NCBI GenBank assembly: GCA_019242465.1
Contig: JAFAVL010000819.1
Coordinates: 1 to 17,492, forward strand
Direction of reading: 5' to 3'
Length of the DNA: 17,492 nt
Origin: Chroococcidiopsidaceae cyanobacterium CP_BM_RX_35
Lineage (GTDB): Bacteria > Cyanobacteriota > Cyanobacteriia > Cyanobacteriales > Chroococcidiopsidaceae
Program-made: the position numbers and the translations under genes
Notes under the pieces: model-generated
What the model saw: only the letters and a program-made list of their open reading frames with translations
What the model was told of the DNA's origin: nothing
Databases searched by the model: none
Shown here: positions 1 through 17,492 of the stretch, piece after piece
Position numbering within the stretch: position 1 is the stretch's first letter
How the letters are laid out: every line of letters starts with the position of its first letter

Positions 1-1232
1 TTGTGATTCCCCAAACCTCCGTAAGCTTTACGGGGAAGCACTAAAGCTTCGTAGGCTCTCAAGGGCAAGAATCGGCGCTCCAAATGCTCCCACAACAGTA
101 CCAGCGTCTCTTGAATCAGGGGTAAAACTCCTGGTTCTCCAGCGGCATCTGTGACTAAGCGCTCTACTAAGGCTGATTCGACAAACACACTAACATCCTC
201 AGCTGGTCTGATGATGGCTTCACGCAACCCCGCTGCATTTAGGGGAACGATCTCCAGCCGATGAGACTGAATCTGTCGCCACAATAGCGAACCCATCAAG
301 TCAGGATAAAAGTCAGCTCGGACTGTCACAACTAAGTAGCAGTTAGGAGTCTCGACCAAACGTAGCAGTGCCGACTGGAAGGGAACTGTTTCCTGGACCA
401 AGGTAAACACTTCCTCAAACTGATCGACAACTAACAGCAATCTTTGAGTACCAGGCTGGGTAGCTAAAGCCTCTGTTACTGCCAGCTCTGGAGTAGTTGG
501 GTCACCACCCAATGCAGTTTCTAGGGCAGTAAGAGGTGTCTCACCAGGGCGCATCGTGCGTACCAACCACTCGCCAGAGCCAAAGAGCCTACTGCGGCGC
601 AGGGCAGGGAGCAATCCTGCAAATACTAAGGAGGATTTACCACTGCCTGACGGACCAATCACTGTTATAAATGGATGCAGGCGCAGACGCTCTATGAGTT
701 CCTTGACTTCCTCATTACGCCCAAAGAAGCGATCGCTCATGTCCTCACTGAAAGGTACCATCCCAGGATAAGGACAGGCTGGCTGAGGCAAGGAATCCGG
801 AACGGGGCGTTGCACATCGGCACACAGACGTGCAACAGCTTCTTCCCATTCATCTGGATTGGTAGCGTTGAGCTTCACAAGCACACTCAGACGAGGTGGC
901 AATTCGACAGGGTGGAGGATGAGGGGAATAACTGGCCACGTTGCCGTGTCTAAGCCATAACACTGAGCTAGTGAGGCAAAAAACTGTTCAGAACAATCTG
1001 CTATGTAGGCTGGGGAAATTACGAGCAAAGTGCGCCGACTTTGCTGGATGGCACGCTCAAATTCCAAGAGCCTGACTGTCCCCAAGGCAAATGCTGCTTC
1101 TGAGTGATAGTGAACGCCTGCCTGCTTCAAGGCGTCCAATAAGTAGCCTTCTACCCAAGCCCGGTCTGCATCAGCATAGGAGATAAAGAGATCGTACTTT
1201 GCCGTTTGCACCATTTTTGCCGCCTGTTGCAT
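1..1232 (-). CDS. TIR-like domain / nSTAND1 NTPase, C-terminus beyond the left edge
   Basis: This is a partial gene: 410 codons are open to the left edge with no stop. Residues 12-140 look like a TIR domain (KYDLFISYADAD near the start, then LLVISPAYI at 69-77). Residues 167-400 match the novel STAND NTPase 1 pattern: FFGRNEEVKELI at 169, P-loop GPSGSGKSS at 193-201, Walker B LLLVVDQFEE at 265-274, then VRADFYPDL. In the family such proteins sense a trigger, oligomerise with ATP and activate the N-terminal effector; the unseen C-terminus is often WD40 repeats. The usual TIR catalytic glutamate (about nine residues after the SPxY tyrosine) appears to be phenylalanine, so NADase activity is doubtful. 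It lies 107 bases after the patatin gene on the same strand, probably in one operon. I chose ATG 1232; ATG 1214 is possible, and the frame stays open upstream to 1346 with a TTG at 1328. The shine-Dalgarno signal is weak at all of these. Confidence 0.85.
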   Translation of the reverse strand, partial: MQQAAKMVQTAKYDLFISYADADRAWVEGYLLDALKQAGVHYHSEAAFALGTVRLLEFERAIQQSRRTLLVISPAYIADCSEQFFASLAQCYGLDTATWPVIPLILHPVELPPRLSVLVKLNATNPDEWEEAVARLCADVQRPVPDSLPQPACPYPGMVPFSEDMSDRFFGRNEEVKELIERLRLHPFITVIGPSGSGKSSLVFAGLLPALRRSRLFGSGEWLVRTMRPGETPLTALETALGGDPTTPELAVTEALATQPGTQRLLLVVDQFEEVFTLVQETVPFQSALLRLVETPNCYLVVTVRADFYPDLMGSLLWRQIQSHRLEIVPLNAAGLREAIIRPAEDVSVFVESALVERLVTDAAGEPGVLPLIQETLVLLWEHLERRFLPLRAYEALVLPRKAYGGLGNH

Positions 1233-1339
1233 AATGCCACTGTTTTTATTACAAATGACTACCCTCAAAGCCCATAGCAGCTTTTGTGTCCCAGTCCAAA
1301 GTCCAAGTTGCTCTAGGCGTTTGCGCAAACCGCTTGGAC

Positions 1340-2494
1340 CTAAAATTCAAAATTGGTAGATCTAGATACCACCTCACTCAAAGCCTGTACAGATAGGTCA
1401 AACGCCTTAGAAAAGTGTTCGTCTTGCACCTGCTGTTCGGCTGCCTTCTCACCTATGAGGGTCAAATTGTAGCGGTTCTCCCCCGCGCTCATGTCGCGAA
1501 GTGAACCCAGCTTCAGACTTAGCTGTGTCAGCCCCAATGCATTGAGAGCATTCGCCTCCAGCCGTACGTCATAGCGCAGATAACTTAGAGCTGGTTCAGG
1601 TGTCAGCAGATCCGAGGCTAGGTTGCCAACCTCTCTGTCGATTTCCCACGGCGTTGAAGTATTGGACAAGTACTGGAGTAGGAGTTGACCCTGCCAGTTC
1701 GCATCATTCATCAGCATTGACGGCACCTGCGTTGCCCAATTCCACATCCTGCCCTCTACTACGTTGTCTGCAGTGTCATGGTGATGCCACGATCCTGTTC
1801 CAACTGAAACTAAGAGTAAGCGGTGCTCTCCAGTTGACCATCGAAAGGGAAAGCCCTTGAGCGTAGCGATGAGGAAAAGTTGTAGCGCCGGGTTGTTTGC
1901 CATACTTACCCCGCCGTCCACGAAAGCCCCAATTTCGCCATTGCCAATATCAAACTTCTCTGGCACAAAGTACGTTGGTGCCGCCGTACTTGCCCGCACT
2001 GCTTGGCGCAGTAGGATTTGGCTGTTGCGGTTGTAGTACTTACTATCTGGGTGATTAGTTAGGGGCCACGTGCTACCAGTGTCGGCTCGCTTGGCAATGA
2101 TGCACAAACCAGTCCTAATTGAGTCATCTCCTAATGTTCTATCCCCAAAAACCTTTGCAAGTTCTTCGTTCAATGGTCCCTGATCAAATCTTGCTTGCAA
2201 GACTCTCCAGCTCCTCTTACCGAAAATCCTCCCTCCTAGCTCCAAGTACATCTGCTTGAGTTCTGCTACCTCCATCCCGATCGCGAGTCCACTCGCAATA
2301 ATCGCCCCAGTACTGGTTCCACCGATCAAGTCGAAGTAGTCGCACAGCTTGAGCTGAGGATCTTGGTGGCGCTGCCGCAGAAGCTGTTCAATCTTCTCAA
2401 GAGATCCTATAGTCAGAATCCCACGAATACCTCCACCGTCCAGTGCCAAAATTCGCTTGGGACTCTTAGATGTCAACCTTTCTAATAAAGTCAT
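1340..2494 (-). CDS. Patatin-like phospholipase
   Basis: A 384-residue patatin family acyl hydrolase, expected to cleave membrane phospholipids with a Ser-Asp dyad. Counting from the chosen start, the oxyanion loop DGGGIRG is at 19-25, the nucleophile elbow GGTSTG has Ser61, and the catalytic Asp193 lies in DGGVSMANNP. All key residues are present, so the enzyme looks active. An in-frame ATG at 2518 would add eight residues, but I prefer 2494 because it forms an ATGA overlap with the stop of the upstream gene and has AAGGAAG seven bases ahead. Translational coupling to the TPR/SLOG-like sensor suggests a stoichiometric pair. Known bacterial defence systems use patatin effectors (for example CapV in CBASS), but no cyclic-nucleotide synthase is visible here. 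Pairing with the sensor as an abortive-infection effector is inference; a lipid-metabolism role cannot be excluded. Confidence 0.92.
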   Translation of the reverse strand: MTLLERLTSKSPKRILALDGGGIRGILTIGSLEKIEQLLRQRHQDPQLKLCDYFDLIGGTSTGAIIASGLAIGMEVAELKQMYLELGGRIFGKRSWRVLQARFDQGPLNEELAKVFGDRTLGDDSIRTGLCIIAKRADTGSTWPLTNHPDSKYYNRNSQILLRQAVRASTAAPTYFVPEKFDIGNGEIGAFVDGGVSMANNPALQLFLIATLKGFPFRWSTGEHRLLLVSVGTGSWHHHDTADNVVEGRMWNWATQVPSMLMNDANWQGQLLLQYLSNTSTPWEIDREVGNLASDLLTPEPALSYLRYDVRLEANALNALGLTQLSLKLGSLRDMSAGENRYNLTLIGEKAAEQQVQDEHFSKAFDLSVQALSEVVSRSTNFEF

Positions 2495-2508
2495 AGCCGC
2501 ACTTCCTT
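2491..2508 (-). promoter_or_regulatory. Coupled start of the patatin gene: SD plus ATGA overlap
   Basis: On the minus strand AAGGAAG (2508-2502) lies seven bases before ATG 2494, inside the end of the upstream gene, and the sequence ATGA merges this start with the upstream TGA stop. This decides the patatin start and indicates translational coupling. Confidence 0.75.
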
Positions 2509-4455
2509 GCATGACCAAAGTGTCGTCGTGTCAAGAATGTGAACTTGACCTGAGTACTTAAGCACAGCGTCATGCATCTGCTTCGTGCCGCCTGGCTCGT
2601 CAACCTCTTTCCGGTCCCAGAGGCAAATAAAATTAACCTTCTCCGGTCCATACGTCAGCGCCGTATAAAGCAGCCACAGATTGTTCCGCACATACGGGTT
2701 GGTACCTTTTGGTGGTGAGCCAAGTTCCTCAGGCATTTTGAATAAGCGCGTCTTTGGATCTGCTGTCACCTGCAAAAACCGATCGCGCCATTGCTCGCCA
2801 GCAAAAGCCACCGACTCCTGCAAAAACCTCGGCTCGTCGAATGGAATATGCATTTCTAGAAGCAACCCGCGCGAAAGGCAGGCTTCTGCAAAGAGCAAGT
2901 CACCGCCACAGGCTCCACTGCATATTGCTATGTCAAGAGAGCCAGCTCCTAGCTCGTCAAGCTTACGAGCGATCGCTCCTTGAGCTGTTCCTGCTTGACT
3001 TGGGGGAAATCGCGGTTCTACTCGCTCCCGTGCATCAATCATATGACCGCTGAAAAGAAATACCCGACGCGGTACCCAGTTGACTTGCGGGACTTCAAGC
3101 TTGCCCAGCTCGTGTTCTAAGATCTTGAGTGCCGCCTCAACTTCTTGTCGCCGAAAGCCCAAATTCTTTAGGAGTAGGAGCTGCTGTCGCGAGGAGTCTA
3201 GCGCAAACCAATCCTTTTGGGCGACAGCAACTGCCGCCTTGAAAGTCTGTTCAATGCGACTCTTGTCACCCAATAAAACTTCAAGTTCGCCAAGCGTGAC
3301 TCTTGCCCAGTAATTCTTCGGATTCTCTATCAGGGCACTGCTCACCGCCCAGCGCACACCCCCCTCCAACGCTTCACGTTGCGTCTTCTCATCCGTACCC
3401 GTTAGGTGCCTAAGTAGATGTAACAAAGTGACAGCATTGATACCGGAGTAGAAGTGACTTGACTGCTTGCGGAACGCCGTCAGATAGGCATCGAACGCTT
3501 CACGCAGTAGATCATCTTCGTAGAGCGCATCCTCTTGCATTTGTGTCGGAGTCTTCTCGTTACTCCTCCAGGCATTAATCCATGCCTCTTTCTCCATTCG
3601 ACCGAGGAGTGCCCAGCTCTCTGCGTCATCAGGATTTTCTTGGACAACTGTTCTGAGCCAGACCATTGCCTCATCGTACTTTTTGAGCCGACTCAGCAAA
3701 ATACCTTTCTGTCGTCGGCTCTCAAGGTCAGTCGGCTCAATGTTAAGGGCTGCTTCATACTGTTTAAGCGCGAACGCAAACTGTCCGAGCTTCAGTAATG
3801 CATTGCCCGCTGCACGATATGCCTCAAGTCGAAGAACTCGGGTGGGTGCCTCTTCGGTAAAAACGAGGATGTCACCGGGTCGTCTTTTCATCCGGGCAAG
3901 CTCAATCCGACGTTCCCACTGCTGGTGTGCCTCCCAAAATTCATTTGCCTCATCAATGCGCAGAGACTTCCAGTCAGGCTCTTTAAGAAAGCGAAGTAGG
4001 TGGTATACCGGGCTGATCTTCCGCCCGTGCCAGGATGCTATAGTTTCGACGGCAAAGTTTGCTAAAGCTGTTTTATTGTCCTCTAGTTTATCTGGGTCAG
4101 GCACACCATCTTTTATGTGATAGCGCAGCGTTCGGTCTACGTAAATGTCAAACGGGAGATGGTCTCGCTGGCACTGAGTTTGTACAACCCCACGGCAGCG
4201 GAGTGCGTGCCGGACTCCTAGCTCGTACCAAACATTGGGATTGTCGATAGATAGATCCACAACCACCAAGTCAGCTAGAAGCAGTTCCTGGAACATGTCT
4301 GTGCGAATGTTTCCAGCACGCAGTTCTTCATCTGCTCGGAAGACCTCAAACCCCACGCCCTCTAAGGCTGGTTTGATATACTCGCTGTAAATTCTATTGA
4401 ATTCAATTCCTTCCTTGGTGCCATATGGCATTGCTACAAACACACTCAGAGCCAT
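2491..4455 (-). CDS. Putative sensor: NDT/TIR-like head, TPR TRAFs-binding middle, SLOG-like tail
   Basis: A 654-residue three-part protein. Residues 1-90 (VFVAMPYG, IKPALEGVGFEVFRADEE, NPNVWYELGVRHAL with Glu78) resemble nucleoside 2-deoxyribosyltransferase-like or TIR-like folds that bind or cleave nucleotides. Residues 205-300 are TPR helices (AYRAAGNALLKLGQFAFALKQ and a second copy), followed by FYSGINAVTLLHLL near 335, a hallmark of the TRAFs-binding/DUF4071 (TPR-S) family. Residues 463-645 (VFLFSGHMID, then SGACGGDLLFAEA at 513-525) look like a Rossmann-type SLOG-like nucleotide-binding domain. It is the first gene of the minus-strand operon and overlaps the patatin gene by four bases. 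GGAG seven bases before ATG 4455 supports the start. Domain labels are by motif only; the TRAFs-binding call is firmest and the SLOG-like call least certain. A plausible role is detecting or making a nucleotide signal that controls the patatin, which is inference. Confidence 0.8.
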   Translation of the reverse strand: MALSVFVAMPYGTKEGIEFNRIYSEYIKPALEGVGFEVFRADEELRAGNIRTDMFQELLLADLVVVDLSIDNPNVWYELGVRHALRCRGVVQTQCQRDHLPFDIYVDRTLRYHIKDGVPDPDKLEDNKTALANFAVETIASWHGRKISPVYHLLRFLKEPDWKSLRIDEANEFWEAHQQWERRIELARMKRRPGDILVFTEEAPTRVLRLEAYRAAGNALLKLGQFAFALKQYEAALNIEPTDLESRRQKGILLSRLKKYDEAMVWLRTVVQENPDDAESWALLGRMEKEAWINAWRSNEKTPTQMQEDALYEDDLLREAFDAYLTAFRKQSSHFYSGINAVTLLHLLRHLTGTDEKTQREALEGGVRWAVSSALIENPKNYWARVTLGELEVLLGDKSRIEQTFKAAVAVAQKDWFALDSSRQQLLLLKNLGFRRQEVEAALKILEHELGKLEVPQVNWVPRRVFLFSGHMIDARERVEPRFPPSQAGTAQGAIARKLDELGAGSLDIAICSGACGGDLLFAEACLSRGLLLEMHIPFDEPRFLQESVAFAGEQWRDRFLQVTADPKTRLFKMPEELGSPPKGTNPYVRNNLWLLYTALTYGPEKVNFICLWDRKEVDEPGGTKQMHDAVLKYSGQVHILDTTTLWSCKEVRL

Positions 4456-4595
4456 ATATTTGCTCCGTAAAACCCATCGACGTTGCTCGTTTAAAATTAA
4501 GAAATTTTAGGCATAAGTTCAAGGGACTATCTTTCTATGCAATTGGTTATTCTTTCGGTATTGGTTAAAAGCTATGAAGCTGCCAAAGCAATGAA

Positions 4596-4624
4596 GATAG
4601 AATTATTATATATTAATATCTATC
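4596..4624. promoter_or_regulatory. AT-rich imperfect palindrome in the divergent intergenic region
   Basis: GATAGA and TCTATC form 6-base inverted arms around a 17-base A/T-only core, between the divergent sensor operon (starting at 4455) and the membrane-protein gene (4714). It could be an operator or simply promoter DNA. The rest of the 258-base gap shows nothing else specific. Confidence 0.25.
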
Positions 4625-4631
4625 CGCTCTT

Positions 4632-4660
4632 TTGCAATGGGTTGTATTAGCTACTATACA
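4632..4660 (+). promoter_or_regulatory. Possible promoter of the RipA-like gene
   Basis: TTGCAA (4632-4637) and TATACA (4655-4660) are separated by 17 bases, a sigma70-type layout with each box matching about four of six consensus bases. It lies 54 bases before ATG 4714, with a strong ribosome binding site AAGGAAGG at 4698-4705 in between, eight bases from the start. Confidence 0.35.
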
Positions 4661-4713
4661 AGAATTAAAAATCTAAGGCTTTGGATTAAACAAAAAAAAG
4701 GAAGGTCAAATAG

Positions 4714-5277
4714 ATGACTGACAAGCAAACTGAAATTGACCAAGAAAATGTGCCAAATAACAGTGGACATCTACACACAACTCAACCCAATTTAACAGAT
4801 ATTACAAAAGAAGCTTATGGAGAAAGTTATCAAGCCCACCTATTAGAGCAATATAAGCTTTATGTTGAAATGACTGACAAAATGAGTGCGAGAAGAAGTA
4901 AGACGAATAGTTTTTATACATCCTTGTTGTCTGGACTATTAGCTTTTCTTTCTCTGACAGGTGAAAAAACACCAACCTCTAATTTTCGAGGCACTGTACT
5001 TTTAGCAATAGCAATTTTAGGTCTGATTTTATGCTTTTTATGGTATATTAATATCCACTCATACAAACAGCTTAATTCAGGAAAATTTAAAGTTATATAC
5101 GAGATGGAGCAGCATTTACCTTTTGCTTGTTACGATAAGGAATGGAACATTTTAAGGAAAGATAAAAGTCATGGAGGGTATTTAAATCATACAAGGATTG
5201 AGCAATACATTCCTTTAGCTCTTGCCACTGTATATCTTGGCTTACTTGCATACTCCATATTCAATCTATTTAAATAA
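4714..5277 (+). CDS. Three-helix membrane protein, RipA-family-like
   Basis: A 187-residue protein with a polar N-terminus (1-45), the conserved-looking stretch EQYKLYVEMTDKMSARR (45-61), hydrophobic helices at about 66-82, 94-112 and 165-186, and a cytosolic-looking loop with MEQHLPFACYDKEWNIL near 131-147. This matches proteins I know as RipA-family octameric membrane proteins, also reminiscent of the SLATT class of membrane effectors in nucleotide-triggered conflict systems. The SLATT link is a weaker guess. The start is firm, with AAGGAAGG eight bases ahead. The gene is clearly more AT-rich than its neighbours, suggesting recent acquisition. It is divergent from the patatin operon and convergent with the receiver-NACHT gene, whose stop is only 13 bases away. 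I see no terminator between them. It may be a stand-alone defence gene or an accessory of either flanking system. Confidence 0.82.
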   Translation: MTDKQTEIDQENVPNNSGHLHTTQPNLTDITKEAYGESYQAHLLEQYKLYVEMTDKMSARRSKTNSFYTSLLSGLLAFLSLTGEKTPTSNFRGTVLLAIAILGLILCFLWYINIHSYKQLNSGKFKVIYEMEQHLPFACYDKEWNILRKDKSHGGYLNHTRIEQYIPLALATVYLGLLAYSIFNLFK

Positions 5278-5290
5278 CCCTTTTATATTC

Positions 5291-7972
5291 TTATCGTTTT
5301 CTATCTAAACCCATTGCAGCAAAATGTTCTAGTAGTAGACGATGGATGAAGATGTAGCCTCCACCAACTTTCTGTAGAAATATGCGTTCCGCAGAGTAAT
5401 CGAGGAAATGGGCATAATTCCAAGGAATATACCCGTTTTGCCAAAGAACGAACCGCAACATGAAGTGCTTGATACAAACAATACCTGAACCTTGCTTAGC
5501 AAATAGCCCACCAATCAACCCAAATATTAGCCCATTAGCCAGCCCATAAAGTACCCCCTTTACTGGCTCAGCAATTGTCCCCACAGCCAGCTTAGGAAAC
5601 CACACGCCAAGTACTCCTAACAGTAGCCCAGAAAATAGCACAACAATTATGGCTGCATTTATAGCAGCGGTTGCCGATTTCCAGATCCCTTGGTTTGGAA
5701 CTATTATTCTATCTACTTCAATTCCTTTTTCAAACCCAAGAGTGACACTGAGAATTAGCCCAATTAATAGCCCATAAATCATCCCGTCAGCTAGTCCAGC
5801 AACTGGAGTAAGGATTGGCCCTAAAACCAACCCAAAAATAAATCTATCCCTGGCTTTTGCCCAAGACCGTTTGAGGGTATCAGCGGGTTCTATTTCTTTA
5901 CGAATTAGTTGATAAAGCAGCCCACCAAACAGCGCATAAACCAGTCCATAAACTAGCCCAAATTTCAGCCCCCCAGCCAACCCAAAACCTAAACCGAAAA
6001 TCAGCCCAAAACTCAAGCCGAAAATCAGCCCAAACATCAGCCCACTGCTTAACATACCAATGAAGCCAAGGTGCCACTCACGGCTCAACGGTTCGCCAGG
6101 GGTAGCTTCTTGACTTGCGTTGAGCTTGCTCAGTCCGTCAGTCAGTGCATAGAGCAAGCCAGCAATTGACCCACCAATCAGCCCCCAAATCAGTCCCATC
6201 GGTCCCAAGTACAGTCCAGCCAGCAGCCCCTCATGCAGAACACCAGCCAGCAGCCCAATAATCAGCCTAACTCCAATCCGATATGTCTTCTTCTGAGCCT
6301 CGGTTTGCACCCAAGATAGCTGCATTTGCTCAATTAAAAATACTGTTTGAGACGATTGAGTCATTCTTTGTGCTAGCCAAATCAGCCAGTGCCGGGCTTG
6401 CTTTTCCGAGTACGGCTGACTGACACCTCGGCGCTTAAACATCCTTTCAACATAAGTACTTAATAGATGTCTGCGGCGTTCTTCCACCAAGTTCGTTATG
6501 GGCAAGTCTTCAGCAGATACCCCTTGGTACGCCAGGATCATGATGTTGAGGATTAGGGGCGACTTTGCTAACTCTTGCAACGCCGTATCTCCCTGAATCA
6601 GTGCGCTTAACCCTGCCAGCTCGGGTCCAGTACTGGCAAGGCTGTGACGAACTTGTTCTAGCGTGAGCGATCGTAGATAGACCGCACCTTGAAAGCTCAG
6701 GCGATTGGAAAGAGCTTCGTAGTCTTTGATACGGCTGCAAACAACTATCTCTGGTCCAAAATCTTGGTTGAATTTGTTTAATGCCAGAATACATGCCTCT
6801 CGACACTCAGCACGGACTTCATCCAAACCATCTAGCAGCAATAACAATTGCTGCTTTCTAATCCAAGTCTGACCAGTTTCCTTAGGAACCTGATATTTGG
6901 TAATCAACTCCTTAACCAGCCAGTCAGCGATGGTTTGCTTCTCACCAAGCCAAGAGGATAGGTTAAACACTACGGGAATCGACTGGTTAATGTCTTGCTC
7001 GGCACGGGTAATCAGGTCACGGGCAAGTTCCAGTAAGGTTGTAGTTTTACCTGCTCCTGGCTCTCCCAGAATCAAAAGTGTCCGCCCTTTGCCCAGTTGG
7101 TCAAATATTTCGATTGCTTTAGCACTTGAAGGCAGGGATTGTTCCGGCCCATCGCCAGTTTCCCAGACCATGTTCCAAGGGTTAGCCACCGCACCAGGTC
7201 TTTCCTCCAGACCTAGCTCAATTAACGCTCGACAATGTAGGGATGTTTCTAAGACACTTTTGACCCAGAAATTGCTTACCTTGCTGAGCAAAGCCTGACG
7301 ATTGTGGTATTCCTGCCGGGTCAGGCGAGTTCTCGCACTTTCCTCTTGCTGACCAAACATATTAACAGTAACATCTTTGAAAACACTCCCGGGACCCTGA
7401 TTCTGTATACTGTCGCGACCAGCTTGGCCGAGCTGACTTCCTTCGATTGAAGATTCATCAATGTTCTGTCGTTGGTGTGGATCGGGAGGCTGTTGGCTTA
7501 GAGGCTTGTTTGTTGTCAATTCATCTGGGACTGGCTCTGGACCATTAGCCTCTGAGCTTGGGACGCTAGTAATCAGCTTTTCCAACAGCCCCGGTCCCAG
7601 ATGAGTATGCCCGCGATAGACCAGCCGAATCGCCTGCGCCAGCTCTTCAGAGAGCATATCTTTGAGCAGATAACCCTTTGCTCCTGCCCGCATCGACTCA
7701 GCAATGTCACGGTCATCATCATAGGTACTCAGAACTAAAACTTTGACATCTGGAAACCGCTGCGCGATCGCTCGTGTGGCATCTTTACCGTTCATCACAG
7801 GCATCCGCAAATCCATCAGCACGACATCGGGCTGCAAGGCTTCTACCTGTTGAATGGCAGCTTCACCATTATCAGCAGTTCCTACCACTTGCAAATCCAA
7901 TTCCTGCGCTAGCATAGCCTTTATCCCTTGCCAAATGAGAGGTTGGTCATCTACCAGTAAAAGGCGAATCAT
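5291..7972 (-). CDS. Receiver-NACHT-polytopic membrane fusion protein
   Basis: An 893-residue protein in one uninterrupted frame. Residues 1-120 are a complete NarL/DegU-type receiver: Asp8/Asp9, phosphoacceptor Asp54 (VVLMDLRMP), Thr83 and Lys104 (GYLLKD). It is followed by the usual linker (RGHTHLGPGLLEKLI), but the DNA-binding helix-turn-helix expected next is absent. Residues 180-190 carry the QxGQAGRDxxQ motif shared with the upstream TIR protein. Residues 215-500 are a NACHT NTPase with P-loop GEPGAGKT (303-310) and Walker B LLLLLDGLDE (376-385). Residues 565-825 hold many glycine-leucine hydrophobic segments (about ten helices, GLIFGL-type repeats). The tail WNYAHFLDYSAERIFLQKV is typical of cyanobacterial NACHT proteins. 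AGAGGT eight bases before the ATG supports the start. It lies 39 bases after the TIR gene, same strand. Phosphorylation-gated NACHT signalling at the membrane is inference; no histidine kinase is in the window. Confidence 0.92.
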   Translation of the reverse strand: MIRLLLVDDQPLIWQGIKAMLAQELDLQVVGTADNGEAAIQQVEALQPDVVLMDLRMPVMNGKDATRAIAQRFPDVKVLVLSTYDDDRDIAESMRAGAKGYLLKDMLSEELAQAIRLVYRGHTHLGPGLLEKLITSVPSSEANGPEPVPDELTTNKPLSQQPPDPHQRQNIDESSIEGSQLGQAGRDSIQNQGPGSVFKDVTVNMFGQQEESARTRLTRQEYHNRQALLSKVSNFWVKSVLETSLHCRALIELGLEERPGAVANPWNMVWETGDGPEQSLPSSAKAIEIFDQLGKGRTLLILGEPGAGKTTTLLELARDLITRAEQDINQSIPVVFNLSSWLGEKQTIADWLVKELITKYQVPKETGQTWIRKQQLLLLLDGLDEVRAECREACILALNKFNQDFGPEIVVCSRIKDYEALSNRLSFQGAVYLRSLTLEQVRHSLASTGPELAGLSALIQGDTALQELAKSPLILNIMILAYQGVSAEDLPITNLVEERRRHLLSTYVERMFKRRGVSQPYSEKQARHWLIWLAQRMTQSSQTVFLIEQMQLSWVQTEAQKKTYRIGVRLIIGLLAGVLHEGLLAGLYLGPMGLIWGLIGGSIAGLLYALTDGLSKLNASQEATPGEPLSREWHLGFIGMLSSGLMFGLIFGLSFGLIFGLGFGLAGGLKFGLVYGLVYALFGGLLYQLIRKEIEPADTLKRSWAKARDRFIFGLVLGPILTPVAGLADGMIYGLLIGLILSVTLGFEKGIEVDRIIVPNQGIWKSATAAINAAIIVVLFSGLLLGVLGVWFPKLAVGTIAEPVKGVLYGLANGLIFGLIGGLFAKQGSGIVCIKHFMLRFVLWQNGYIPWNYAHFLDYSAERIFLQKVGGGYIFIHRLLLEHFAAMGLDRKR
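5994..6041. repeat. 24-base tandem repeat inside the NACHT membrane region
   Basis: Two adjacent 24-base units beginning CCGAAAATCAGCCCAAA encode GLIFGL-type repeats near residues 645-660. Similar, more diverged units extend on both sides. It is coding sequence, suggesting growth of the membrane region by repeat duplication. Confidence 0.6.
7403..7435 (-). other. Shared QxGQAGRDxxQ motif, NACHT copy
   Basis: Residues 180-190 of the receiver-NACHT protein read QLGQAGRDSIQ and sit in a linker rich in Gln, Ser and Pro just before the NACHT part. Eight of eleven residues match the TIR protein copy. The layout resembles short prion-like or RHIM-like signalling motifs found before bacterial NLR NTPases; that function is inferred. 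Confidence 0.5.
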
Positions 7973-8011
7973 ACGTGTACCTCTTGTAAGGAGACTGTTG
8001 GCTCATACTTG

Positions 8012-9136
8012 TCATGACTCAACAAAAAAATCTGCTGCTACACCAAACCAAGGTGCCAACTTAGAAGTAATTAGCTCTAATTTCTGCCATCCTTGACCTG
8101 CCTCAATTTCGTCAGCTTCCTTCAGAGCTTTGATGGCTCGTCGTAAACTCTTCGCAGCAAAGTTTTTGTCAGGTTCAGTTTCCTGAATTTCTTCTTTAGC
8201 AGTCTCTAGATGTTTGAGGGCTTTTTCTTTCTGTTCTTCTGACAAGTCTGAGTTGCGGAATAAGATCTCCATCTGAGCAATTAGCTTAGCAACTTCTGGT
8301 GGGGTTAATTGTTTCTCAGCTACATCCTGGCGAAGTGGCTGAGTTTGATTGAGATCGCGACCAGCCTGTCCAAACTGTCCTGAAACTTGACTACCACTAA
8401 TGCTGATTGATTGTGAAGGTTTTTCTTCGCAAGCGGATTTCTTACTAGGTTGAGATTGAGCTAGCTCATGTGACTGATTCCTCATTACTTGCACTGGCTT
8501 CTCGAGAATGGGTAGTGGTGAGTCCAGCAGATTGTTACGTTCTCCATGCAGCAGCTCGTTCTGATCTGCTGGCTCGGTGCCATTAGGCAACCGTAGACTG
8601 TCTACTTTTTTTAGCTCTTCAACTGCCTTCCGAATCCCTCTAGCAATATCCGCAAACGCCTGATCGCGACTTGCCCAGTTATTCACAGGTTCAGCATTTC
8701 TAGGCAGAGCCTGGAGCTTGCCGAACTGTGCGCCCTTCCAATCAACTTCGCGGAGAATGATGGGAATCACGCGAGCGGCTTGAGCTGCATGCCGTTCCAT
8801 TGCCCGTGTTAGCTCTATGTCATAGCAATAATTTGAAGCTAGGAAATCTGCACTAATCAGCAGCAGAATCACCTGTGCTGTGTTTAAATGCGCATCAATC
8901 TCTCCTGCCCACTCTATTCCGGCACTGATCTCTCGGTCATGCCAGGCCGTAATTACGCCCTGCCGCTTCAAAATAGTCAGGTGTTTCTCTAGTTCATTCC
9001 GCATGTCTTCGTCCTCATGAGCGTAGGAGAAGAAAACTTCAATTTCACGCATCTCCTCATCTAGACACAACGGTGTTGGATCTTTAGGATTTGCTGGTAG
9101 AAGCAAGATTTTTTTTACTGGCTGATCGCTACTCAT
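8012..9136 (-). CDS. TIR-domain effector with shared Gln/Gly motif and helical C-terminus
   Basis: A 374-residue protein. Residues 1-31 (KKILLLPANPKDP, LCLDEEMREIE) look like the first strand and helix of a module often seen in cyanobacterial CHAT, WD40 and NTPase proteins, cut short. Residues 32-175 are a TIR domain: EVFFSYAHEDE, WHDREISAGIEW, LLISADFLASNYCYDIEL, with Glu108 at the NADase catalytic position, then VIPIILREVDW. Residues 180-245 are a polar linker, 254-264 the QFGQAGRDLNQ motif, and 275-374 a mostly helical domain ending in a hydrophobic stretch (LAPWFGVAADFF). Bacterial TIR domains commonly consume NAD+ on activation, so an effector role is likely. Its start overlaps the DUF1830 stop (TAATG) with no clear Shine-Dalgarno, and the receiver-NACHT gene follows 39 bases later. 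ATG 9052 is a weaker alternative start. Confidence 0.9.
   Translation of the reverse strand: MSSDQPVKKILLLPANPKDPTPLCLDEEMREIEVFFSYAHEDEDMRNELEKHLTILKRQGVITAWHDREISAGIEWAGEIDAHLNTAQVILLLISADFLASNYCYDIELTRAMERHAAQAARVIPIILREVDWKGAQFGKLQALPRNAEPVNNWASRDQAFADIARGIRKAVEELKKVDSLRLPNGTEPADQNELLHGERNNLLDSPLPILEKPVQVMRNQSHELAQSQPSKKSACEEKPSQSISISGSQVSGQFGQAGRDLNQTQPLRQDVAEKQLTPPEVAKLIAQMEILFRNSDLSEEQKEKALKHLETAKEEIQETEPDKNFAAKSLRRAIKALKEADEIEAGQGWQKLELITSKLAPWFGVAADFFVES
8345..8377 (-). other. Shared QxGQAGRDxxQ motif, TIR copy
   Basis: Residues 254-264 of the TIR protein, QFGQAGRDLNQ, preceded by a Ser/Gly/Gln stretch (SISISGSQVSG). It lies between the TIR domain and the C-terminal helices and matches the NACHT protein motif at 7403-7435. 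Confidence 0.5.
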
Positions 9137-9408
9137 TACTTATAGCAACTTAACTCATTAACTTGTAAATGGTTACATTGAATTTTGTCAGTTAAAATTG
9201 CAGTAACAGGTGTACCCATGTGAATCTCTAATTGAGCCTCTGGCAAAGCTTCAAACAGAAGCCGTTCTCCAGGAAAAACCGTTCGCTCAAAATACCAACT
9301 GGCAATGTTACAGATCCGAGCAATTTGAATGTGAGGGGTGTTATTCCTATATCTACATAGAATTCGACGTTCATAGTCAGTAGTCAGAGAGTCAAGAATT
9401 TGAGCCAT
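9136..9408 (-). CDS. DUF1830 family small protein
   Basis: A 90-residue protein whose core (RILCRYRNN, IQIARICNI, WYFERTVFPGERLLFEALP, AQLEIH) matches the cyanobacterial DUF1830 family at its usual length. The biochemical function is unknown. It has no membrane segment or signal peptide and looks like a small beta-rich cytosolic protein. GAGGGAAGGA just upstream supports ATG 9408. The stop codon shares a base with the TIR gene start, so the TIR protein may be made by translational coupling to this gene. DUF1830 genes also occur as ordinary chromosomal genes, so the link to the TIR/NACHT pair may be positional: the pair may simply have inserted behind an expressed gene. Confidence 0.85.
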   Translation of the reverse strand: MAQILDSLTTDYERRILCRYRNNTPHIQIARICNIASWYFERTVFPGERLLFEALPEAQLEIHMGTPVTAILTDKIQCNHLQVNELSCYK

Positions 9409-9490
9409 ATCCTTCCCTCATGCAAGCTTGTGCAGGGCGTCTTTGCCAGTCAGCGCTAACAATTTTTCCAAACTTTGAGATGCCGAAATC

Positions 9491-9787
9491 TCAATTAGGT
9501 AGATCTAGATTTGAAATTCGCGTAGCTGCTGGTGAGTCTACAAAATCTTTTTGATCAGGACCTGGAAGCCAATCTGGAGTATAGAGCGGGGCTTCTGATT
9601 GAACACGTCCAACGACTGTTGCTGCCGCACCAGCTAAAATCACAACTATTTGGGCGACCTCTTTCCCAGAAATGCTGTGTCGATCGTAAGCATCTCCAAC
9701 AATTGGAGCTATAGCGGCGATTGTCGTAAAAATCGAACCCCAAACTGTTTTGCTGGCAAAGACACTTTTTGATTGTAGAGTAGGCAT
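9491..9787 (-). CDS. Small two-helix membrane protein, holin-like
   Basis: A 98-residue protein with two hydrophobic segments (about 14-32 and 45-62) joined by a short polar turn (DAYDRHSISGKE), then a soluble tail with LYTPDWLPGP. The KTVWGS start of helix one and the turn-helix-GR arrangement resemble putative phage holins and related small cyanobacterial membrane proteins. No other phage gene is nearby, so it is an isolated remnant or a host protein of unknown function. Only a poor, distant GGAG precedes ATG 9787. It is transcribed in the same direction as the DUF1830 gene, separated by 82 bases. Confidence 0.65.
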   Translation of the reverse strand: MPTLQSKSVFASKTVWGSIFTTIAAIAPIVGDAYDRHSISGKEVAQIVVILAGAAATVVGRVQSEAPLYTPDWLPGPDQKDFVDSPAATRISNLDLPN

Positions 9788-10073
9788 AGCGATACAATTC
9801 TTACACTCCTATTCTCCCTAGCTTCTGTTAATAAAAACCTAAACAAATGCAATGATGAAATATACGCTTTAAATTAGTAAAAACATAATTTTTAAGCTGG
9901 ATCTTTGATTGGAGATGTTGCACGTGAATCAGAAGCGGTTGCTACCTGAAGGCTCACATTTTGTCCTGACTCAAGCCTCTATTTAGTAATCAGTCTAAGC
10001 AATTGAAAACATAGATACAAGAGATGATTTTTTTGTGCAATGGGTGATTTTTTCGGTCTTAGTGAGTAGTGGG

Positions 10074-10994
10074 CTAGCGGCGATGCGACAATCGCCAGGC
10101 TTGCGGAGTCGTGCCATGAAGCCGACGAAACAGCCGGATGAAATGACCTGGGTCGAGATAGCCTACTGTCTGGACAATCTGATTCACTGATTCGTCAGTT
10201 TCCAGCAGTAAGCGGCGTGCCAAAGCCATGCGACGCTCGACAATCCATTCCAGCACTGTGCGTCCAGTCTCGCGCCGCACCAAGTCAGTCAGGTAGGCTG
10301 GGGAAAAGTTGACCGCCTTGGCAACTTCCGAAAGCCCAATTGGCTGACAGTAGTTAGCCTCAATGAAGCGGAACACTCTCATCAGCAAAGGGCGGGAATG
10401 CACTGAGCACTTGGGCAACCCCAGTTCTGGCTGTGCGGTAGTATCAATCTGTACCAATCGGGCAATGTCAATCAGTAGCAGCATCAATAGCGCTCGTGCC
10501 GCCTCTGTAAAACCCAAATGCATGTTGCCCAGTTCACGTTGGAGCTGCTGGAGTTGCAACAGCCAACGGGGCAGTTCTTGGGGTGCGATGTGCAAGTGCC
10601 TCGTCTCCACCTGTTGGTTGCACAGCAATGAGCGCAGTTGCAGTTGCTGCGGCAAAAATAGGTCAGCCTCAGTCTGCCCCAGGTTGAGGGTATCAGCACC
10701 GAAAGCGACTATCCACTTGGTAGCATGATCAAGACCTCTCGGATCGTGAATTTCACCAGGGACAATGACAAACAAATCGCCAGCTTGAGCCCATGTTTGC
10801 CGTTCGCCGATCTTGTGCCAGCCCTCACCCGCTTCCACGAACAATAGCTCGAAGAAGGCATGGGTATGGGGGCGTGACGGTGGAGTGTTGGGTTGGTTAG
10901 TGTAGCGAGAGACCCAGACTTGCGGTGATTCAGGGCTGCGGTCCGGCCAACTCAGTGTGGGTAATGGAGTGACAACACAAGCTGTCTTTGGCAT
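10074..10994 (-). CDS. AraC-family transcriptional regulator
   Basis: A 306-residue regulator with a cupin-type sensing domain at about 35-110 (PHTHAFFELLFVEAGEGWH, GDLFVIVPGEIHD) and a C-terminal double helix-turn-helix at about 205-303. The first recognition unit contains IGLSEVAKAVNFSPAYLTDLV; the second ends with IVQTVGYLDPGHFIRLFRR, the classic AraC/XylS signature, followed by GTTPQAWR. It therefore binds DNA, probably in response to a small ligand, but the ligand and targets cannot be read from the sequence. No metabolic operon is adjacent, so it looks orphan. AAGGTG eleven bases before ATG 10994 and a TATAAT just upstream support the start. GC content is higher than the flanking intergenic DNA. 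Confidence 0.93.
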   Translation of the reverse strand: MPKTACVVTPLPTLSWPDRSPESPQVWVSRYTNQPNTPPSRPHTHAFFELLFVEAGEGWHKIGERQTWAQAGDLFVIVPGEIHDPRGLDHATKWIVAFGADTLNLGQTEADLFLPQQLQLRSLLCNQQVETRHLHIAPQELPRWLLQLQQLQRELGNMHLGFTEAARALLMLLLIDIARLVQIDTTAQPELGLPKCSVHSRPLLMRVFRFIEANYCQPIGLSEVAKAVNFSPAYLTDLVRRETGRTVLEWIVERRMALARRLLLETDESVNQIVQTVGYLDPGHFIRLFRRLHGTTPQAWRLSHRR

Positions 10995-11011
10995 GGCAAG
11001 TAAAGCACCTT

Positions 11012-11028
11012 ATTATATTTCTTGCAAG
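11012..11028 (-). promoter_or_regulatory. Likely AraC-gene -10 box with adjoining palindrome
   Basis: On the minus strand a perfect TATAAT (11017-11012) lies 17 bases before ATG 10994, preceded after three bases by the 8-base palindrome CTTGCAAG (11021-11028). No good -35 box is visible, so activation or autoregulation at the palindrome is possible. The leader would be only about ten bases. Confidence 0.35.
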
Positions 11029-11528
11029 AGTCAGTTTTTTTACGTATCTACAAGACATATCACTCTTGTTTTTACTTTTTATGCAAAAGTTTTACTTTTG
11101 TAGAAACAGATTTACTAAAAAACTCCTGAAACTCATACATATTACAACTCACAAACAACTGCCTCAGACCCGTCTGCTTTTAACGATTGGTAATCGATAG
11201 TCTGGAGAAGTTTACCTTTGTAATGTATTTTTCTTTGAAATTCCTACTTTAGGACGAATTAATAAGGTCAAGCGGGTCTTCAAAGAGCTTCATCTTTTTC
11301 ATCTTCTAGATAATTGGACGTTGAACAAATTTGAGATATTCTCACTTTAAAAGTTTAAGCAAGGATAGACATCTGAAAAACGTCTCGAATCCCATCTCAA
11401 TAATATAGATAAATTTTCTCTAACTTTCGTTAGTTACTAAGTATATTTGCTTAAGACTTTAGTTAGACTGAACTTTGAACAAAAAGAATGAGTTCAGCTA
11501 CTGTGATCCAGAAATTGACCAAGGCTGT

Positions 11529-11569
11529 AAACTAGTAGCTATAAAGCTATCAACCAGAAACCCTAGTTT
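11529..11569. repeat. Nested inverted repeat
   Basis: AAACTAG (11529-11535) and CTAGTTT (11563-11569) enclose a second hairpin TAGCT-ATAA-AGCTA (11536-11549). The function is unknown; it could be part of an unannotated RNA or chance in AT-rich DNA. Confidence 0.3.
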
Positions 11570-11809
11570 GCATCTGATTTCTTTTACTACCTTTAATTAG
11601 GAGTCTCACAACATAATTTTTGGCTTTGTTAGAGATAAATCTATCTTCTAGGGAAAAGGCAAAACTAGCTATTTTCAAATGATGAATAGGAAGACTTTAA
11701 GAAATCATACTGAGGAAACAATTTTGCTTGTCTTGGTTTTTGTTAAATTAGTAAGGTGAATAAGTGTATACTTTGTATTTTTTTATGTCTCTCTACTCAA
11801 CGTTCCGCT

Positions 11810-11847
11810 CAATGACCGCTCATTGCGGCGCGAAGAGCGCAAGCTCT
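11810..11847. other. Two tandem hairpins next to the terminator, possible small RNA
   Basis: CAATGA-CCGC-TCATTG (11810-11825) and AGAGC-GCAA-GCTCT (11834-11847, with a GNRA-type loop) are followed by the terminator stem at 11854-11888. Read on the plus strand, a TATACT at 11767-11772 could start a transcript of about 110 bases ending at the terminator. Equally they may be part of the 3' trailer of the minus-strand coiled-coil gene. Confidence 0.3.
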
Positions 11848-11853
11848 ATAATT

Positions 11854-11888
11854 TTAAAAATCCCAGCTCACGTCACTGGGATTTTTAA
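11854..11888 (-). terminator. Rho-independent terminator, possibly bidirectional
   Basis: TTAAAAATCCCAG and CTGGGATTTTTAA form a perfect 13-base stem with a 9-base loop, 20 bases after the stop of the coiled-coil gene on the minus strand. Both arms give a T-run on their 3' side, so it could work in either direction. Confidence 0.8.
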
Positions 11889-11908
11889 TTCAATGACCTC
11901 AAGCAATA

Positions 11909-12892
11909 TTATTTACTTGGAGGTTCCTTTTCCCGCACAAGCTCAGCAGCTGCCTGTAGTAAATCACTCAATACCTGTCGTATACGTCGCTCTTTCTTAG
12001 CTATAGCAACACCTGCGTCACCTAGCCTTTCGTCTAACAGTGAGCGCTTCTGATCAATCTGATCAACTACTGCTTCAGCTTTAGGACGAGTTTGGTCATA
12101 CCAAGTTTTAGCGTCATCTAGATGTTCCTTAACTTCCTCATATCGACCTCCATACCGAGCTGCCAAGTTAGCTCTGAGAATTGCTGCTTGCGCTTGAAGC
12201 TGGGCATAGCGCTTTCGCATTAAGCCTACCTCTTCACTATCTTTAAGCACATTGACCGCGGATTCAATAGAGGCTTTAATCTTGGGAGACGTATCTTTCC
12301 CCGTCTCTTCAACATCACTGAGAATTTGCTCAACTTCTTTTTGGAGTTCTTCTTCTTCAGAATCTAGCTTAGTCTGAAGCTGTTTAACCTCTGCTTGAGT
12401 TTTAGCAATGGACTGGCGTCGCAAACGACTGACGCCTTCAATAACTCCCTCAATAGAAGCAGTCACTTCTTCTTTGACTTCGCCACCTTTTTCTTGCAAA
12501 TTCTCAGTTACAGTAGAAACAGCGGTAAAAACAGCATCTTTAGCAATCGAACGAATATCTTTGGAGCCTGACTTAAATTCTTCGACTACCTGAGATACTG
12601 CTTCTTGAACAATTTCTCGAACTCGCCCCGTTCGTAATTGCCCAGCTTCTTTAGCTTGTTTCAAGTTAGTTTGAATTCTCTCTTTTAGCAAATCAGCCAT
12701 GGCAATTTTATTAGGTGACTGCTCACTCTGGGATTCGCGTTGAGCAAAATCATCAAAATTTTGGTATTCATTAATGTCAAACTTTTGCTCATCTAACGCT
12801 TGCTTTGGGTTCGGATTCTGGTTTATTAATTCTGGATTACCTTGAGACAACTCTTGCATGATCTGGCGTTTCTCTTCATCGGTAATAGACAT
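11909..12892 (-). CDS. Conserved-type coiled-coil protein of unknown function
   Basis: A 327-residue, highly charged, cysteine-free protein. An acidic, Asn/Gln-rich N-terminus (about 1-65) precedes long amphipathic helices with heptad-like spacing (for example TQAEVKQLQTKLDSEEEEL and LMRKRYAQLQAQAAILRANL), reminiscent of apolipoprotein-like or late-embryogenesis-type repeats. There is no membrane segment or catalytic motif. Similar cyanobacterial proteins have been labelled histidine kinase, but no H, N or G box is visible, so I would not use that name. I chose ATG 12892 because GGAG sits nine bases ahead; ATG 12901 directly abuts the same GGAG. A strong terminator follows the stop. It appears to be a single-gene transcription unit; a scaffolding or stress role is only a guess. 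Confidence 0.75.
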   Translation of the reverse strand: MSITDEEKRQIMQELSQGNPELINQNPNPKQALDEQKFDINEYQNFDDFAQRESQSEQSPNKIAMADLLKERIQTNLKQAKEAGQLRTGRVREIVQEAVSQVVEEFKSGSKDIRSIAKDAVFTAVSTVTENLQEKGGEVKEEVTASIEGVIEGVSRLRRQSIAKTQAEVKQLQTKLDSEEEELQKEVEQILSDVEETGKDTSPKIKASIESAVNVLKDSEEVGLMRKRYAQLQAQAAILRANLAARYGGRYEEVKEHLDDAKTWYDQTRPKAEAVVDQIDQKRSLLDERLGDAGVAIAKKERRIRQVLSDLLQAAAELVREKEPPSK

Positions 12893-13109
12893 TTCATCCA
12901 TCTCCTATTCAAGTTCGAGTTGTGTTATTTAATATTTGATAACAGGTCCTAATACATTAAATGATAGATCTTGACTTGCTTGCTCCCCTCCTCCTGGCGA
13001 CTGACTTGATGTGGCTTGGAGACAGAGGAAAGCAAGAAGCTGTTACTAAGAGTAGTTAATGGCTAGAGTCATTGAATTAAGATTATTGTCTCTTCTTTTC
13101 TTTTCTATC

Positions 13110-15587: not shown

Positions 15588-15622
15588 CAATGCTATGTAT
15601 TACAGGTATAAATCCGAATATA

Positions 15623-16426
15623 TTAAATAGAAACTTCCTGAATGTCAGTAAGATTCAGCAACGAGTTTTGACTGATTGCTAAATCTAGATAGTCGCTATC
15701 ACCAGACACTTTGTTGCTGGTATCGCGCCCACACCGCACGGCGAATTGACAGGAATCACAAACGCTAACTTTACGTACTTGAGGAAACGGCTCTCCTACT
15801 TGGTAGCGTTGCAGGTGATTGCGCAATTGGTTTAACAACCGCTGTAGTTTTTGACCTGTTTGCTGATGTTGACTAGTACTATAGGTAAATTTAAGGCTTT
15901 GAGGTGGCTCTAGAGTCTGGATGAACCAGTAAGTTAGGGAAATTTGTTCAGGCAGGTAGCCGCTGGTCTCAGCTAACACATAGAGGTAGAGAAGTGTCTG
16001 CCAGTTCTGTTCTAACCGACGCCGATTTTGGGGCTTGGGATAAGTTTTCCAGTCCAGGATTTGAGCTTGGAACTCATCTGTAATCAACAGATCATAGATC
16101 ACAGTCAGTAAATAGTCTTGTATTTGCAATGTACGACAGTGTTCGCTTTCGCGGAACGTTTGACAAGTTGGTTGAGGGGCAAGAATTTCGGGTGCGGCAC
16201 TAGTAAACGCAGACATCCAGCGTTGCATTTGAGGATCTGCTTGCACTAAGGACTCTATCGGCAAGCCCAGTTCTCGCTGCTGCATCAACAAATGAAAGTG
16301 ACTTCCCCAAGTCAGCCGCTCTTGCTGCTCCAAAGTGGTAGGGAGACCGATTTGGTCTAGGTAGGTGTGTTGAAAGTAGCGGGGGCAACGCTTCAGCAAA
16401 TTTAGATGCCCTTGGGAAAGTCGCAT
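15623..16426 (-). CDS. PD-(D/E)XK nuclease with four-cysteine Fe-S signature
   Basis: A 267-residue nuclease of the AddB/Cas4-like PD-(D/E)XK group. Visible elements are Cys14 in LLKRCPRYF, the GxxxH-type motif GSHFH at 41-45, Asp112 (VIYDLL), ILDWKTY with Asp125 and Lys127, the QTLLYLY helix (QxxxY at 143-147), and a C-terminal cluster Cys223, Cys226, Cys232 (VCDSCQFAVRC). The one-plus-three cysteine pattern is the iron-sulfur clamp of this family, so the enzyme probably cuts DNA in repair. There is no helicase domain and no CRISPR array nearby, so a Cas4 role is not supported. RecJ follows 35 bases downstream, suggesting a two-gene repair operon. No Shine-Dalgarno is evident before ATG 16426, but no better start exists, since MRLSQGHLNLLKRCPRYF fits the family N-terminus. 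Confidence 0.88.
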   Translation of the reverse strand: MRLSQGHLNLLKRCPRYFQHTYLDQIGLPTTLEQQERLTWGSHFHLLMQQRELGLPIESLVQADPQMQRWMSAFTSAAPEILAPQPTCQTFRESEHCRTLQIQDYLLTVIYDLLITDEFQAQILDWKTYPKPQNRRRLEQNWQTLLYLYVLAETSGYLPEQISLTYWFIQTLEPPQSLKFTYSTSQHQQTGQKLQRLLNQLRNHLQRYQVGEPFPQVRKVSVCDSCQFAVRCGRDTSNKVSGDSDYLDLAISQNSLLNLTDIQEVSI

Positions 16427-16557
16427 AGCTGTATTTAGTATCTACAAATACAAATTTTATGATGACAATTTTGATTTACTCTAAACGCAGAGGAGTTGGG
16501 AGTATCGGCAGTGAGTACAACCCGGAATGGCAAACCTATAAGGCTAAGGTGAGGACG

Positions 16558-16591
16558 CCAGAATGCTTAACGCCGGGAAACCCGGCTCTGG
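16558..16591. repeat. GC-rich interrupted hairpin in the divergent intergenic region
   Basis: Inner arms GCCGGG and CCCGGC (16572-16586, loop AAA) are wrapped by CCAGA (16558-16562) and TCTGG (16587-16591), with a nine-base bulge on the left. It lies between the divergent nuclease (16426) and amidotransferase (16645) genes. There is no T-run, so it is not a simple terminator; a dispersed repeat or an RNA leader structure is possible. Confidence 0.5.
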
Positions 16592-16644
16592 CAACTGGCT
16601 CGACATAGGAGCGATCGCAGTACATCAACTGCTAGTATCAGGGG

Positions 16645-17400
16645 ATGAAACTTAAGCCACCACTAATTGGGATTACCACCCCACTTATTGAATTTACCAC
16701 TCCGCAAGAGCGTAAGACGCAACTATTTTGTCTGCGAAGTGATTACGTTGAAGCAGTGCGCCGTGTCGGCGGTATGCCTATCCTGCTGCCGCCAGGAGAA
16801 CCGGAAGAAAGCGCTCTGCTTTTAGAACGGGTGGATGGTCTAGTGTTCTCTGGTGGAGGTGACATTGACCCATCCATCTACAATGGTGAGGCGCATCCAA
16901 CGATTTACAATACTGATGTCAAGCGCGATCGCTTTGAGCTAGCCCTCAGCCAATTGGCTCTCAGCACAGATGTCCCGGTTCTTGGTATTTGTCGTGGATT
17001 AGAAGTATTAGTAGTGGCAACTGGAGGCAATTTGGTGCCGCACTTGCCAGATGAGTTTGGTGAGGCAGTTGCCCATCGGGTAGAGCAGTCTGTCCCTTCT
17101 GAGCATGCAGTACAGATTGCTCCTGGGAGCCGTCTGGCTAAAATGATTGGCACTACGGAAACAACAATTGTTTCGTGGCATCATCAGGCGACTCGTACAG
17201 TACCACTAGGGTGGCGCATTGCAGCTCAGGCAAAAGATGGCGTCATTGAAGCGCTGGAGCATAAACACCATCCTTGGGCGATTGCCCTCCAGTGGCATCC
17301 AGAACTATCGCTCAACGACCCACGACAGCAAAGCATCTTTCGCTCGTTTATTGCCGCAGCCCAAGATCGGCAAGCGGCATTGTCGCAAGCAGCTGGGTAA
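16645..17400 (+). CDS. Gamma-glutamyl-gamma-aminobutyrate hydrolase family (class I amidotransferase-like)
   Basis: A 251-residue, single-domain class I glutamine amidotransferase-like hydrolase (peptidase C26). Residues 63-76 (VDGLVFSGGGDIDP) form the characteristic glycine loop, PVLGICRGLE carries the nucleophile Cys116, SWHHQA near 177-182 matches the family HHQ motif, and ALQWHPE supplies His218 and Glu220. All three catalytic residues are present. Relatives such as PuuD split gamma-glutamyl-GABA during putrescine breakdown, but no other puu gene is adjacent, so the true substrate is open. The gene stands alone, divergent from the nuclease-recJ operon. GGGG lies almost directly before ATG 16645, closer than ideal; no better start is seen. 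The remaining 92 bases to the right edge hold no recognisable feature. Confidence 0.92.
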   Translation: MKLKPPLIGITTPLIEFTTPQERKTQLFCLRSDYVEAVRRVGGMPILLPPGEPEESALLLERVDGLVFSGGGDIDPSIYNGEAHPTIYNTDVKRDRFELALSQLALSTDVPVLGICRGLEVLVVATGGNLVPHLPDEFGEAVAHRVEQSVPSEHAVQIAPGSRLAKMIGTTETTIVSWHHQATRTVPLGWRIAAQAKDGVIEALEHKHHPWAIALQWHPELSLNDPRQQSIFRSFIAAAQDRQAALSQAAG

Positions 17401-17492
17401 AAAACGCTCACAAAACTGCCAAAGAATATTTAGGCATCAGAATTAGTAATTGTTGCTACTACTCTGTTAGCAAAGCTGCCCTAGTGTGGTTC

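Follow-up and report, generated by a model that had tools for sequence, protein, structure and literature searches.

A cyanobacterial receiver-NACHT protein with a candidate signaling motif shared by an adjacent TIR gene

We analyzed 17,492 nucleotides of Chroococcidiopsidaceae cyanobacterium CP_BM_RX_35 (contig JAFAVL010000819.1, positions 1 to 17,492; hereafter the window), in which a minus-strand gene at 5291-7972 joins a NarL-type receiver domain, a short motif island, and a NACHT NTPase core with an inserted membrane block, and the adjacent gene encodes a TIR protein carrying the same motif. On balance, we lean toward reading this pair as a membrane-anchored NOD-like receptor (NLR) that signals to a TIR effector by templating of the shared motif, with the receiver as an extra phosphorelay input.

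The gene is a single open reading frame (ORF) of 893 amino acids (aa). A Pfam search confirmed the combination of domains proposed in an earlier note on this DNA, placing a receiver at residues 5-116 (6.4e-27) and NACHT at residues 297-391 (1.5e-9), each above its cut-off. The same fusion, 84% identical (P0002), is encoded with the same upstream TIR gene on contig JAFASY010000108.1 (L001), from a metagenome-assembled genome (MAG) of a Chroococcidiopsidaceae cyanobacterium. Because this copy and its neighbor come from a separate assembly, the chimera or frameshift artifact that the earlier note had considered is rejected, on two sequences of which one is a MAG. Receiver and NACHT occur together in 2 of the best 120 of 2383 homologues and in 2 of the best 120 of 588. 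Across 386 cyanobacterial genomes and 291 genomes of the order of a related genome, G001 (overlapping sets; scoring was limited to the top 2 or 3 candidates in each genome), G001 alone gave a match from residue 1. Among 1384 matching plasmid records, none of the best 30 aligned in both domains. No description of a receiver-NACHT protein was found in a literature search that covered few subscription papers.

The receiver (7625-7960) retains all of its phospho-site residues in both copies: Asp8, Asp9, the phospho-acceptor Asp54, Ser82, and Lys104. The complete NarL-type receiver described earlier therefore stands for Asp8/9, Asp54, and Lys104, with the switch residue corrected from Thr83 to Ser82, an assignment that we base on NarL spacing. 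VraR and NarL are its neighbors in the PDB by sequence, and the best stand-alone relatives share 66% (G001:C324) and 69% (a Gloeocapsa sp. PCC 7428 plasmid) identity over residues 1-143. Comparing the window with L001, the ratio of nonsynonymous to synonymous rates (ω) is 0.075 for the receiver in its fused context, which indicates strong purifying selection, 0.126 for NACHT, and 0.394 for the membrane block; this and every other ω, dN, or dS value given here comes from these two sequences only. In G001, the genes beside the two closest regulators are a HisKA_3 kinase and, at a contig end, a HATPase fragment. Given the intact phospho-site, the strong purifying selection, and the HisKA_3/HATPase genes beside the nearest stand-alone regulators, gating by a two-component phosphorelay is plausible. 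At position 14, the start of helix 1 and presumably part of the kinase-contact region, a Trp replaces the Arg of 104 of 117 related receivers; an aromatic residue at this position was found among 119 receivers only in the two receiver-NACHT proteins and in P0122 and P0123, the latter two with Tyr.

Downstream, the NACHT nucleotide-binding domain (NBD; residues 297-445, 6638-7084) has a P-loop at 303-310 and Walker B from 376. It is followed by a helical and first winged-helix part (residues 446-565, 6278-6637), the Gly-Leu membrane block (residues 566-830, 5483-6277), and the C-terminal end of the winged-helix region (residues 831-893, 5294-5482, including YIFIHRLLLEHFA), all on the minus strand. 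The predicted core matches solved NLRC4, NLRP3, and NOD2 across the NBD, helical domain 1, and winged-helix domain by VIA-align, and together with the P-loop and Walker B this gives the protein the features of an NLR or STAND (signal transduction ATPase with numerous domains) protein, in agreement with the NLR-like reading proposed earlier. A sequence-profile search of the PDB returned 0 hits, so the fold assignment rests on the predicted model and VIA-align. Pfam identified no repeat family that could act as a C-terminal sensor; the protein stops at the winged-helix region. NTP-driven oligomerization would be expected of such a protein.

The Gly-Leu membrane helices reported in the earlier note are present, but as an insertion inside the winged-helix part rather than as a C-terminal output domain. 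The block also occurs in relatives whose N-termini are TIR, kinase, caspase, or protease domains; it varies in size, and relatives with a short insert exist. On the fold and on these short-insert relatives we reject the block as a C-terminal effector, and output at the membrane, as the earlier note proposed, is not borne out for a variable block shared by proteins with such varied effector N-termini. The output is likely the motif-sharing TIR protein, whose gene lies 39 bp upstream.

This partner gene (8012-9136, minus strand), which ends 39 bp before the receiver-NACHT start, encodes 374 aa arranged as TIR, motif, and four-helix tail. Its TIR domain (residues 34-175, 8612-9037; Pfam residues 34-142, PF13676, 2.6e-15) contains Glu108 in a CYDIEL motif, which we take to be the catalytic residue. 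The partner motif copy spans residues 241-266 (8339-8416), with the core GQAGRD at 8354-8371. In the receiver-NACHT protein, the motif island, a proposed amyloid-type signaling motif absent from the earlier note, spans residues 166-204 (7361-7477), with its core at 7412-7429. These two sites are the only places in the window that encode GQAGRD (0 in 200 shuffles). The tail (residues 275-373, 8018-8314) is a predicted four-helix bundle common to CHAT, DUF4062, and stand-alone partners. Relatives carry the motif-tail module joined to TIR (P0240), CHAT and TIR (P0241), or CHAT (P0242, P0243). The N-terminal 32 residues of the window TIR protein (9041-9136, minus strand) can be aligned to the beginning of CHAT in P0241-P0243, which would fit descent from a CHAT-TIR ancestor that lost its CHAT domain. 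A HeLo-like assignment for the tail was rejected, the Pfam HeLo match being non-significant (E 0.046; 14.0 bits, the cut-off being 23.2) and found in a single tail protein, at L108. Foldseek with the TIR-tail model, a weak one (mean predicted local distance difference test score 50.3, six sequences), gave no match at E ≤0.001.

For the window, L001, and 20 loci of NACHT relatives, the 70-residue stretch preceding NACHT was scored against each of the two closest genes in the same orientation; the 20 were hand-chosen from 50 rows after their N-termini and motif places had been seen, and include kin loci (L109-L111, L116-L117, and L118-L119 among several related ones). L113 and L122, with N-termini below 20 residues, were left out. 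Shuffled sequences scored as well in 1/500 trials for the window and 0/500 for L001. NACHT genes with short N-termini (20-100 aa) matched their nearest co-directional gene at 12 of 14 loci (0/500 shuffles each), the remaining two being L118 (6/500) and L119 (8/500), and genes with longer N-termini did so at 0 of 4. A control with unrelated genes reached 0/100 shuffles in 7 of 800. Motif types vary from locus to locus and match within each, for instance ISGGTVQGLTQQNTGTITQNF at L109-L111, SGVGQQAA at L112, and GTNTGQAQAIAAGRD at L170. Summed cognate motif scores exceeded all 20,000 re-pairings, both for 17 of the 18 pairs (L175, with a motif stretch below 20 residues, was omitted) and for the 13 less similar ones. 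Besides TIR, partner proteins include CHAT (L107), DUF4062 (L176), and pentapeptide (L115, L116, L117) proteins; DUF4062 is described in PMC13174449 as a TIR-like NADase.

Many motif-matched NACHT/partner pairs of differing motif types were seen in cyanobacteria at L107-L117, L162-L188, and L199, one of them involving a motif-tail partner of 144 aa encoded on the Acaryochloris marina MBIC10699 plasmid pREC2. At L108, a further, short NACHT-like protein that carries the motif twice in tandem is encoded (9254-10150, minus strand) between the genes for the tail protein and the main NACHT protein.

The motif island also bears on how the fusion arose. It is identical in L001 (dN 0, dS 0.417, with borders fixed after the alignment was seen), consistent with purifying selection on the motif, and it adjoins a fast-evolving linker (residues 135-165, 7478-7570, ω 1.17) that holds the fusion junction at about 154-158. 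With MAFFT, the start Met of 16/16 short relatives, picked by eye from 48, falls in the Leu158 column; by local alignments, Met1 reaches residue 158 in just 4/16. The Leu158 codon is CTA in the window and CTG in L001, which additionally has a Met at 154. Because the start Met of short relatives aligns with Leu158, the receiver and its hinge appear to have been added to a complete motif-NACHT gene close to where its start codon used to be (residues 154-158). The earlier note had NACHT replacing the helix-turn-helix (HTH). A Pfam scan of the 893-aa protein indeed found no HTH family, NACHT standing in that place, but a receiver with its hinge fronting a complete motif-NACHT gene describes the protein better. 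Among the 120 closest relatives (the best 120 of 2383), 20-100 residues precede NACHT in 48 and at least 150 in 60, with 12 outside both ranges; a regular expression found a QAGRD-type motif in 14/120, and only P0001 and P0002, the two receiver fusions, combine it with a long N-terminus. Among relatives, those with an effector in cis do without the motif and those with the motif do without an N-terminal domain. The fusion carries both features, an argument for the receiver being an extra input.

In the mechanism that we favor, the NACHT/winged-helix core, lacking sensor repeats and carrying a polytopic membrane block in its winged-helix region, would anchor the NLR at the membrane. Upon oligomerization, the Gly/Gln/Asn motif before NACHT would nucleate a templated, amyloid-type assembly that recruits and clusters the TIR-motif-tail protein from the adjacent gene, and the clustered TIR protein would consume NAD and stop or kill the cell, in a putative defense role. 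The receiver, a later addition before a complete motif-NACHT gene, would license or tune assembly as a second input through phosphorylation of Asp54 and receiver dimerization; this phosphorelay control is the boldest part of the proposal. A stricter version makes the protein an AND gate, in which kinase-driven dimerization of the phospho-receiver and membrane-linked NACHT oligomerization must coincide to seed the TIR effector; this would be the first immune-type NLR wired to a two-component system, with a membrane segment built into its winged-helix switch, and we put it forward tentatively, as a possibility that we would not bet on.

Other roles for the receiver deserve weight. It may be an output or adaptor in the effector slot, with NLR assembly altering receiver activity (as a phosphate sink or through partner binding) and not the reverse. 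Close relatives do hold a TIR, kinase, caspase, protease, or cyclase domain in that N-terminal slot; receiver domains are reported as sporadic effectors in ternary conflict systems (PMC8195603, PMC7159879), and kinase-less ones as potential effectors and nucleotide-responsive switches there (PMC8195603). We nevertheless judge this reading improbable: in trans, the neighboring gene supplies a TIR effector that bears the matching motif, and the confinement of long N-terminus plus QAGRD-type motif to the two receiver fusions among the best 120 relatives indicates that the effector slot was not simply swapped. The Trp14 substitution and the failure of Pfam to identify a kinase in the 12 window ORFs scanned would also suit a passive or phosphorylation-independent dimerization module that seeds assembly with no phosphorelay. 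Orphan response regulators are common in cyanobacteria, however, and the fully kept phospho-site and low ω of the receiver in both copies make a passive module unlikely. Finally, matching motifs indicate pairing rather than physical state, so the NLR and TIR protein could bind through a soluble homotypic docking element that is not amyloid, an option to which the absence of a RIP homotypic interaction motif (RHIM) tetrad in the window lends some support. Against it, Gly/Gln/Asn-rich NLR N-terminal motifs matched in an adjacent effector are given in PMC7889193 as a signature of bacterial amyloid signalosomes, and we hold docking to be a minor prospect.

Several results count against templating to the TIR effector with a phosphorelay input, beginning with the lack of a kinase among those window ORFs. 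The receiver and linker were poorly modeled in structure prediction, and the selection estimates come from two sequences with island borders drawn post hoc. The RHIM tetrad occurs in 4/18 partners and 1/18 NLRs. The cognate NLR ranks top for only 7 of the 13 less similar loci, and four other NLRs outscore the window's own NLR against the window TIR motif, placing it fifth of 17; motif specificity thus lies at the level of type rather than locus, and no cognate specificity was seen inside the QAGRD type. The motif DNA pattern hit 33 places in the 386 genomes compared with 20 for its reversed control, too little above the control to serve as a genome-wide marker. A NACHT of this profile was present at only 12 of 37 loci selected by the tail domain. 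The tail can therefore be found without that kind of neighbor, and the idea that it always stands beside NACHT is rejected; the other 25 loci may have other partners or none.

Elsewhere in the window, a DUF1830 gene (9136-9408, minus strand) overlaps the TIR gene by one base and is not among the L001 ORFs of at least 80 aa. A patatin-like phospholipase gene (1340-4455, minus strand; CBASS-lipase model, below cut-off) overlaps a TPR-S protein gene by 28 bases, and the two look like a second two-gene conflict system. Between the two putative systems lies a gene for an 8xMP family membrane protein (4714-5277, plus strand; PF24838, 7e-41).

The usual view is that a ligand bound to the C-terminal repeats of an NLR triggers it. 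The window NLR has no such repeats; its switch region contains a membrane block and its signaling motif is preceded by a phospho-switch, raising the possibility that an environmental signaling pathway licenses an immune-style cell-death receptor. If so, environmental sensing and immune-style cell death would be tied together in one polypeptide, and an amyloid signaling motif would act from a central position. The result would also point to a broad set of motif-matched cyanobacterial NACHT/effector pairs, one of them on the A. marina MBIC10699 plasmid.

Among the known systems close to this one is the cyanobacterial Gly-Leu NACHT family (P0003-P0120), which shares the NACHT and membrane block and is 42-65% identical where aligned; its N-termini are TIR, kinase, caspase, protease, cyclase, or motif-only, a receiver being present in P0001 and P0002 only among the best 120 of 2383. 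P0122 and P0123 (REC-PF26355-AAA_35) place the same NarL-type receiver (59-61% identity, with the aromatic residue at 14) before a P-loop ATPase. They differ in having AAA_35 in place of NACHT, and neither an inserted membrane block nor a QAGRD motif was seen in the sequences inspected. NarL/LuxR response regulators share the receiver and hinge (66-69% identity over 1-143) and differ by the HTH that the window protein lacks. The PADLOC ThsB1 model of Thoeris matches residues 33-190 of the TIR protein (E 2.1e-63); this match spans half of the profile and excludes the tail and motif, and the 7 ORFs scanned gave just a weak ThsA1 match (best E 0.035). Membership in the RHIM/BASS3 group is rejected, since the core tetrad (V/I)Q(V/I/L/C)G (PMC9444067) is absent from both window proteins. 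The layout is that of the bacterial amyloid signaling sequence (BASS) NLR/effector pairs: adjacent genes, a motif before the NLR core matched in the effector gene, and a cyanobacterial host. Such pairs are reported from actinobacteria and cyanobacteria, with CHAT and TIR as less frequent effectors, in PMC7889193, which poses central function of an amyloid motif as a question. Unlike BASS pairs, the window NLR has its motif centrally, between receiver and NACHT, where short relatives have it N-terminally; it also has an internal membrane block and an added receiver, and its partner runs TIR, motif, four-helix tail with no C-terminal motif, in contrast to the BELL domain and C-terminal motif expected of a BASS effector. 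By layout, the receiver-NACHT/TIR pair is a putative member of the motif-matched NLR/effector systems, in a variant form marked by the central place of the motif, the membrane insertion, and the receiver.
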